Below, piece after piece: positions 20,050-21,995 of a stretch of DNA of 52,329 nucleotides (position 1 is the stretch's first letter; every line of letters begins with the position of its first letter). The translations under genes were made by a program, and so were the position numbers. The notes beneath the pieces are model-generated. The model saw only the letters and a list, made by a program, of their open reading frames with translations. It did no database searches and had not been told where the DNA came from. The stretch covers positions 1 to 52,329 of the forward strand of contig JALOLK010000017.1 of the NCBI GenBank assembly GCA_025456015.1. Direction: 5' to 3'. This DNA is from Candidatus Nanopelagicales bacterium (GTDB lineage: Bacteria; Actinomycetota; Actinomycetes; S36-B12; CAIYMF01).

Positions 20050-20436
20050 ATGGGCCAGCGCACCCTCGTCGTGAAGTGCACCACCGTGGACCCCGAGCCC
20101 TGCTCGCAGGCGTTCACGGTCGCCGCCACGGCGCTGGCCGCCGGGGCGCGCGTCTCGCTGTGGCTGACCGGGGACGCGACGCTGCTGGCCACCCCGGGCC
20201 GCGCCGAGGGGTTCGCCCTGCCGCACGCCGCCCCCCTGGCGGACCTGCGCGACGCGGTGCTCGCCGAGGGCACGCTCACCGTCTGCACGCAGTGCGCCGC
20301 GCGGCGGGGGCTGGAGGCAGCCGACCTGCTGCCGGGCACGCGGATCGCCGGTGCGGCCGCGTTCGTGGACGAAGTGCTGGCCGAGGGCGCGCAGGCCCTG
20401 GTCTACGGCGCCGGGGGCACGACCCCAGCGTCCTGA
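20050..20436 (+). CDS. DsrE-like family protein (start could be GTG 20041)
   Basis: MGQRTLVVKCTTVDPEPCSQAFTVAATALAAGARVSLWLTGDA; CTQC. Confidence 0.75.
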   Translation: MGQRTLVVKCTTVDPEPCSQAFTVAATALAAGARVSLWLTGDATLLATPGRAEGFALPHAAPLADLRDAVLAEGTLTVCTQCAARRGLEAADLLPGTRIAGAAAFVDEVLAEGAQALVYGAGGTTPAS

Positions 20437-20467
20437 TCCCTGCCCGGTTCGACCGGCTCGGCGGTGC

Positions 20468-20926
20468 TCAGGCGCGGCGCAGGCGCTGGGCGCGCAGGTA
20501 CAGCTCGCACCCGATGCAGACGTCGAAGGCCGCGTTGAGGAAGGCCGCGGCCAGCGCGAGGCCGATCGCCCCGAGGGCCAGCCACGGGGCACCCACGGCG
20601 AAGCCGAGCAGGCCGACCAGGCTGAACGCCAGGCCGCAGGCCTGCGCGAACCGCGGGGCCGCCGGGTCCTCGAGGTGGTCCGGCGGGGCCAGCCGGGGGC
20701 GCACGAGGTGCTTGAACACCAGGCCGTAGGGCTGGCGCGCCGGGCCCGCCACGGTGCCGATCGCGAACACGACGGCCTGCAGGGCGAGCAGCACGGGCGA
20801 GGCCAGCACGAGCGCGGCGGCCAGCACGACGGTGGTGATGGCGGCGCCGAAGCGCGGGCCGCGCGGGTCGAGGCCGGTGGGCCGACGCGTGGGGGTCGTG
20901 GTGGCGTCAGGGGTCACAGCAGTCAT
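20468..20926 (-). CDS. DUF4395 membrane protein
   Basis: DPRGPRFGAAITTVVLAAAL...; FDVCIGCELYL CxxC motif. Confidence 0.88.
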   Translation of the reverse strand: MTAVTPDATTTPTRRPTGLDPRGPRFGAAITTVVLAAALVLASPVLLALQAVVFAIGTVAGPARQPYGLVFKHLVRPRLAPPDHLEDPAAPRFAQACGLAFSLVGLLGFAVGAPWLALGAIGLALAAAFLNAAFDVCIGCELYLRAQRLRRA

Positions 20927-20978
20927 GGGGAGCTCCGGGAGGGGCGGGGATGCGCGGACGCGCCGGACAGGGCGGAGG

Positions 20979-21056
20979 TCAGCGCATGCAACACAGGCAG
21001 GTGCTGGTGCGGCCGTGGTCCACGGCCCGCCGCCTCGTCAGATGCACCTGCTGCAT
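20979..21056 (-). CDS. putative Cys-rich leader peptide (25 aa)
   Basis: MQQVHLTRRRAVDHGRTSTCLCCMR; LTRRxxVDxxRxxxxxC leader pattern; 52 nt upstream of DUF4395; -10 AGGGTA (rc TACCCT) exactly 6 nt before ATG. Confidence 0.75.
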   Translation of the reverse strand: MQQVHLTRRRAVDHGRTSTCLCCMR

Positions 21057-21062
21057 GGCCCG

Positions 21063-21099
21063 AGGGTACCGGCGATCGTGGAAACGTGAACGATCGTTC
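21063..21099 (-). promoter_or_regulatory. predicted leaderless promoter with overlapping GAACGATCGTTC palindrome
   Basis: rc: GTTCAC-17 nt-TACCCT-6 nt-ATG; 12-bp palindrome 21088-21099 overlaps the -35. Confidence 0.5.
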
Positions 21100-21152
21100 C
21101 GGATGGTGAGACACCGCGCTGCCTGGGCGATCGCACCTGTCAGGCTGGGGCC

Positions 21153-21995
21153 ATGACGACACCGCCCCGTGACCGGGCCCCTGGCCGCGGCCGGATCCCC
21201 GAGTCCGACGAGGGCCAGCTGCGCCTGGCCGTCCTGATCGACGCCGACAACGCGCAGGCGGCCGTGATCGAGCAGCTGCTGGCCGAGGTGGCCAGGTTCG
21301 GCGACGCGACGGTCCGGCGGATCTACGGGGACTTCACCTCGCCCAGCAGCGCGTCCTGGAAGCGCGTCCTGCAGCGCAACGCGATCAAGCCGGTGCAGCA
21401 GTTCGCCTACTCCACCGGCAAGAACGCCACCGACAGCACGCTCATCATCGACGCGATGGACCTGCTGTACACCGGCAACTTCGACGGGTTCTGCCTGGTC
21501 ACCAGCGACAGCGACTTCACCGGGCTGGCCATGCGCCTGCGCGAGGAGGGCCTGACCGTGCTCGGCTTCGGGGAGCGCAAGACCCCGGAGGCGTTCCGCA
21601 ACGCCTGCCACCGGTTCGTGTTCGTCGAGGTGCTGCGCGAGGCCGCCGCCGGGGTGGCCAGGGCTCCTGAGCCGCCCGAGGCCGACCAGCGCCCGGACAC
21701 CAGCACCGAGGCCGAGGCGACCGCGGAGCAGCGGACGGGTGCGACTGCCGCGCGGCCGAAGCTGCCGAAGAAGTTCGTGCTCTCGGCCCTGGCCCAGTCC
21801 GCGGACGACGAGGGGTGGGCGCACGTCGGCACCTTCGGCAGCTACCTCAACAAGCTCCAGCCGGACTTCGACCCCCGGCTCTACGGCTACCGCAAGCTCT
21901 CGGACCTCATCCGGGCGCGCACCGACCTGTTCGTCACCGAGGAGCGCCGCGCGCCCGGCGCCAACCAGTCGGCCCTGTACCTGCGCGCGCGCTGA
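21153..21995 (+). CDS. NYN domain + OST-HTH/LOTUS domain protein
   Basis: LAVLIDADNAQAAVIEQLL; LVTSDSDFTGLAMRLREEG; C-terminal PKKFVLSALAQSADDEGWAHVGTFGSYL...LYGYRKLSDLI. Confidence 0.88.
   Translation: MTTPPRDRAPGRGRIPESDEGQLRLAVLIDADNAQAAVIEQLLAEVARFGDATVRRIYGDFTSPSSASWKRVLQRNAIKPVQQFAYSTGKNATDSTLIIDAMDLLYTGNFDGFCLVTSDSDFTGLAMRLREEGLTVLGFGERKTPEAFRNACHRFVFVEVLREAAAGVARAPEPPEADQRPDTSTEAEATAEQRTGATAARPKLPKKFVLSALAQSADDEGWAHVGTFGSYLNKLQPDFDPRLYGYRKLSDLIRARTDLFVTEERRAPGANQSALYLRAR

Follow-up and report, generated by a model that had tools for sequence, protein, structure and literature searches.

Short cysteine-codon leaders upstream of actinobacterial cys operons were described by Seliverstov et al. 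in 2005, and a Rho mechanism like that of the tna operon was proposed for them (PMC1262725). In Mycobacterium smegmatis, ribosome occupancy has been reported for such a leader and for the genes downstream of it (PMC4633059), and two further reports give experimental proof of cysteine-dependent control for mycobacterial leaders of this type (PMC9031893; PMC13236596), the second also describing a mechanism that masks the Shine-Dalgarno (SD) sequence. The M. smegmatis gene MSMEG_5788 encodes an integral membrane protein and is followed by MSMEG_5789 (sulfurtransferase) and MSMEG_5790 (SseC) (PMC5445863). As mycobacterial-type leaders lie directly before DUF4395 and then cysA2, an order that matches MSMEG_5788–5790, we infer that MSMEG_5788 is a DUF4395 gene. 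In NCBIfam, the family of M. smegmatis Ms5788A and the M. tuberculosis cysA2 leader is represented by NF042933 ('Ms5788A family Cys-rich leader peptide'), with the traits of a leaderless transcript (5′ AUG/GUG), Cys codons clustered near the stop and a sulfur operon of membrane protein, cysA2 and sseC. Related models are NF042934 ('putative leader peptide', cis_reg_atten) and NF042936, the Ms4527A family found before nirA/sulfite reductase.

The window considered here is the whole stretch of DNA analysed, 52,329 nucleotides from a draft Candidatus Nanopelagicales genome (2.75 Mb, 163 contigs, 78% complete), and it carries the following elements.

20468–20926, minus strand: gene for DUF4395, predicted to be a helical membrane protein of 152 aa (PF14340, E = 8.9e-43)
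20927–20978, minus strand: spacer separating the leader from DUF4395, rich in C and poor in G, a possible Rho-loading region by composition
20933–20936, minus strand: GGAG Shine-Dalgarno sequence of DUF4395, from sequence
20979–21056, minus strand: leader peptide ORF MQQVHLTRRRAVDHGRTSTCLCCMR, 25 codons plus TGA, from translation and the NF042933 match (below cut-off)
21063–21068, minus strand: −10 element (TACCCT), separated by 6 nt from the leader ATG, from sequence, with a predicted transcription start site (TSS) at 21056

Coordinates and translation confirm the 25-aa ORF, containing CLCC, that the preliminary description had placed 52 nt before a DUF4395 gene on the same strand: its stop lies 52 nt from the DUF4395 ATG (20926), both on the minus strand. 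TACCCT at 21063–21068 likewise stands exactly 6 nt before the leader ATG, as described. This spacing is common among the homologues: of 47 leaders, 42 have TANNNT at a distance of 6 or 7 nt from the start codon (other offsets occur only 4 times), and the base immediately preceding the start codon is C, again in 42/47. Because the offset is fixed at 6–7 nt in 42/47, the leader mRNAs are very probably leaderless, with their putative TSS at the start codon; by sequence geometry the window leader thus has the leaderless-transcript trait of NF042933 and the leaderless layout proposed for it earlier.

The closest NCBIfam model to the window leader is NF042933 (E = 3.7e-8, 32.9 bits), whose cut-off of 45 is not reached; the score against NF042934 is 19.2 bits, where the cut-off of 27 is not reached either. 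The NF042933 cut-off is also missed by the leader of a sister species (29.4 bits) and by a leader lying directly before cysA2 (44.0 bits), and is passed by the one mycobacterial-type leader that was scored (56.3 bits). The likeness to the Ms5788A family lies in the leaderless short ORF, the LT[KR]RRxVDxxR core, the Cys codons before the stop (here CLCC, codons 20–23, the clustering typical of NF042933), a Cys nine residues after the motif Asp (Asp+9) that is encoded by UGU in most members, and the position directly before a gene for DUF4395 or an integral membrane protein. In contrast to that family, the window leader has three Cys codons rather than 5–8 and scores below the cut-off, cysA2 and sseC were found neither behind DUF4395 nor elsewhere in the genome, and SD sequestration was not detected. 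With NF042934 it shares the RRxVDxxRxxSxxC core and UGU at Asp+9 (29/30 tested), but the NF042934 leaders stand before a wide range of other genes (sulfurtransferase, sulfite reductase and others), and a single genome can hold up to ~10 of them in one family of the class that has large genomes. A leader of the Ms4527A sort stands before sulfite reductase at C27:31308; the window leader is closer to Ms5788A and has no NF042936 match. Judged from its sequence, the window leader is a reduced variant of the known cysteine attenuator, in keeping with its preliminary assignment to a leaderless Cys-leader type for which the mycobacterial reports show cysteine-responsive attenuation, NF042933 being the closest model.

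A comparison across DUF4395 orthologues, of the sort proposed in the preliminary description, finds that the leader recurs, upstream of DUF4395 in 30 of the 49 DUF4395 loci of the order Nanopelagicales; more leaders are present in Streptosporangiales, Nocardioides and another class of the phylum, and a family of the same class has mycobacterial-type polycysteine leaders before DUF4395. The conserved motif occupies the following segment.

21015–21041, minus strand: codons 6–14, LTRRRAVDH, containing the conserved motif LT[KR]RRxVD with synonymous codons free, from leader comparison

All 19 leaders of an alignment share residues L6, R9, R10, V12 and D13, and across 43 leaders these residues are encoded by many synonymous codons; selection therefore acts on the peptide. 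The sister species is represented by a Candidatus Nanopelagicales MAG of the same genus (G001, locus L093), whose DUF4395 is 87% identical to that of the window. Between the two genomes the leader DNA is 95% identical; identity is lower in the 60 nt before it (65%), in the spacer (56%) and in the core of DUF4395 (72%). (The sister DUF4395, L017/L093, also has an N-terminal low-complexity Ala/Pro-rich repeat, AGSTAPAA, that is absent from the window.) On these comparisons, the window leader is not a chance ORF.

The cysteines themselves are conserved in a particular way.

20988–20999, minus strand: Cys cluster C20-L-C22-C23 (TGC CTG TGT TGC), from sequence
20991–20993, minus strand: TGT at codon 22, encoding the near-invariant Asp+9 Cys, from leader comparison

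A Cys lies exactly nine residues after the motif Asp in 41 of 43 DUF4395 leaders, while the Cys runs vary, and its codon is TGT in 39 of those 41. The other Cys positions of the DUF4395 leaders favour TGC (21/23 at Asp+2, 18/24 at Asp+7), and the difference in codon between Asp+9 and the other positions is significant (p = 8e-12, uncorrected for relatedness); the permutation tests of this study also ignore relatedness among the sequences. A wider NF042934 search, whose leaders mostly precede other genes although a few are the same DUF4395/cysA2 leaders, gave an Asp+9 Cys in 30/33 non-redundant leaders, TGT in 29/30 of them; UGU is thus used in 68/71 over both samples. TGT is a rare codon; the genes of the window use TGC for Cys in 29 of 29 cases. 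Two more leaders in the window genome both have TGT at Asp+9, one preceding sulfite reductase (G000:C27:31308, L057) and the other beta-carbonic anhydrase (G000:C106:160, L058; its frame looks broken after ~53 codons). In the sister species Cys23 is replaced by Arg and codon 22 is still TGT. Thus, the Cys cluster emphasized in the preliminary description is present, but it is not the conserved part, which is the single UGU nine residues after Asp. We present as new a near-invariant core, apparent from the leader alignments, of LT[KR]RRxVD plus one UGU Cys at Asp+9; no mention of the UGU rule was found in the literature covered, which does not include the main experimental study (Canestrari 2020). 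The fixed Asp+9 UGU would provide a simple signature for the whole leader family and would distinguish the site of sensing from the Cys runs, which vary.

Beyond DUF4395 in the window lies a DsrE family gene (20050–20436, plus strand) that is convergent, and DUF4395 is accordingly monocistronic, as had been proposed; having DUF4395 directly behind the leader is, by contrast, the family norm and not the special arrangement that was first supposed. In many relatives the order is leader-DUF4395-cysA2(-sseC), with sseC (DUF1416) after cysA2. There are 19 loci with cysA2 directly after DUF4395 (one at 270 nt), and all 19 have the leader, compared with 0/19 loci without leader in which cysA2 follows DUF4395 (p = 9e-6). 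The window has DUF4395 only of the NF042933 sulfur operon, and the order has all three genes behind the same leader. CysA2 and SseC were not found in either genome of the window's genus, an absence that is weaker evidence genome-wide because these genomes are incomplete (78% and 85%), but the local order DUF4395-DsrE excludes cysA2-sseC from the window operon. Within the same family, both proteins are also absent from G004 and G007 (95–98% complete) and from G008 and G012 (95–99% complete), and CysA2 from G017; three genomes without CysA2/SseC retain only distant paralogues (~30% identity), and the same searches recover both proteins in G002, G003 and G010. Every genome without CysA2/SseC keeps leader-DUF4395, which supports the earlier notion of a 'minimal version' for the window genus and several other lineages. 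Most economically, these lineages lost cysA2-sseC, or the two genes never became part of the operon, and DUF4395 was left as the target. In the sister genome, the interval between DUF4395 and DsrE was considered as a site for cysA2-sseC and holds instead an alpha/beta hydrolase gene on the other strand. In two relatives that lack cysA2 (L018 and L045), the gene after leader-DUF4395 appears peroxiredoxin-like by eye, suggesting other redox or sulfur partners. In the DUF4395 protein a CxGC motif is invariant; its structure model (pLDDT 93.7) has six helices and no solved structural relatives at E ≤ 0.001.

Taking the evidence together, we consider it probable that the leader is the translated 5′ peptide of a leaderless DUF4395 mRNA, an Ms5788A homologue at which cysteine-dependent stalling raises DUF4395 expression. 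Initiating at the 5′ AUG, ribosomes would translate LTRRRAVD and come to codon 22, the UGU for Cys that lies nine residues beyond Asp13. A shortage of charged Cys-tRNA would make them stall at UGU22, and the stalled ribosome would increase the expression of DUF4395, a membrane protein linked to sulfur metabolism. The cysteine response of the window leader and its direction are predicted by homology. Conservation, promoter geometry, the fixed UGU, the cysA2-sseC synteny and SD pairing in relatives count for this mechanism; scores below both NCBIfam cut-offs and the lack of an SD pairing signal in the window and the sister count against it. If it is correct, cysteine controls DUF4395 directly, also in lineages that no longer have the sulfurtransferase genes, and a role for DUF4395 in sulfur uptake or handling is indicated.

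How the ribosome position would be read out is less clear-cut. A readout by translation attenuation, in which the leader end pairs with the DUF4395 SD and a ribosome stalled on the Cys codons frees it, is conceivable, although we judge it somewhat less than probable. Over 43 non-redundant loci, pairing between each leader and its own SD averages −9.83 kcal/mol versus −8.38 kcal/mol for permuted pairs (p < 5e-5), the effect persists when the 26 GGAG-type loci are taken alone (p = 5e-5), and released RNA buries the SD more deeply with its native leader end than with a shuffled one (p = 1.7e-6); by this covariation the leader end of the relatives is, on average, paired with the DUF4395 SD. On the other hand, the 17 loci without a GGAG core are not significant alone (p = 0.16), the effect is absent in the window and the sister (z = +0.69 and +1.80 against shuffled sequence), and the only local match in the window is the 5-bp CUCCG/CGGAG, common by chance at such G+C content. 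In simulations of stalling the SD opens in 36 loci and closes in 2, but because the shortened RNA gives this result trivially, these counts were set aside and the permutation and shuffle tests used instead; simulated stalling in the window does not clearly free the DUF4395 SD. For the window genus, SD sequestration by the leader end is therefore unsupported by the permutation, shuffle and stalling tests. The full-length fold of the window buries the SD against codons 4–6, a fold that the sister does not share. Codons 4–6 of the sister leader (L017) contain GCUCC, complementary to its GGAGC SD, a possible alternative masking element in the genus.

A classical trp-type transcription attenuator is not supported, given the lack of an intrinsic terminator between leader and gene (no terminator-like sites were found in 20400–21200), and an Rfam search matched no family at the leader locus. 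The same lack of intrinsic terminators fits a Rho readout as in the tna operon, proposed for actinobacterial cys leaders by Seliverstov et al. (2005; PMC1262725), in which the spacer would load Rho and the ribosome position in the leader would gate transcription into DUF4395. C accounts for 61% and G for 24% of the spacer's first 38 nt, a C content matched by only 0.05% of the contig's 38-nt windows, a second such stretch lies at 20876–20913, and C exceeds G in 42/47 spacers. Yet C-richness is a matter of composition only, with 13 such stretches in the contig, and a ribosome stalled at codon 22 leaves the spacer uncovered, which predicts more rather than less termination on starvation; we regard this readout as rather unlikely. 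The window and sister spacers (61–66% C) are the most C-rich among eight spacers compared. The ~100 nt running from the leader stop into the start of DUF4395 (20876–20978, minus strand) are C-rich and G-poor throughout, and among the most C-rich of the contig.

That the short ORF is translated without any cysteine sensing, either coupling to and boosting DUF4395 translation by re-initiation or producing a stable small protein, is improbable. Coupling through upstream leaderless ORFs has been discussed for mycobacteria (PMC4633059), and the invariant LxxRRxVD with free codons indicates that the peptide itself is constrained; but the position of the Cys is fixed, as is its rare codon, and the leader family is tied to sulfur genes (sulfurtransferase, sulfite reductase). 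That the leader is a random ORF which happens to contain Cys codons, short ORFs being plentiful in the G+C-rich DNA of the window, is ruled out by comparative data, namely the retention of the leader across families and orders, its promoter geometry and the island of conservation against the sister genome.

Returning to cysteine-dependent stalling as the preferred mechanism, the question arises why an attenuator that reads codons should conserve an N-terminal peptide motif across a phylum. The spacing between the conserved motif and the UGU codon is constant, which suggests an involvement of the nascent chain in the stall. Tentatively, Cys-rich leaders could act as a bipartite sensor instead of simply reading a run of Cys codons, LT[KR]RRxVD in the exit tunnel and one slow, near-invariant UGU at a fixed distance from it together setting a sharp cysteine threshold, and the window leader, which has no target but DUF4395, might then, just as tentatively, be the smallest natural example. 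In TnaC of E. coli, arrest by the nascent peptide has a Rho readout, an Asp is at a fixed distance upstream of the arrest site, and a Rho-loading region follows the leader. The conserved residues, including Asp, and the putative Rho-loading region of the window make TnaC a possible parallel only: the leader sequence and the ligand differ, and arrest by the nascent peptide is a candidate mechanism here.

Finally, comparison of the regions upstream of the leaders reveals a further element.

21097–21112, minus strand: operator-like sequence GTCTCACCATCCGGAA, located at −56 relative to the ATG, from leader upstream comparison

Of the 47 leaders, 16 have the operator-like consensus GTCTCACCATNTGGAC at −58 to −56, the window leader among them. 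In a genome search for an operator regulon, the window site was the sole exact match and weaker matches occurred at control level. Through this element, a shared sulfur regulator could possibly act above the attenuator. In some loci the element is a near-perfect palindrome (GTCCACAATGTGGAC), and the two other leaders of the window genome, those of sulfite reductase and carbonic anhydrase, have similar operator-like sequences upstream at ~−57.
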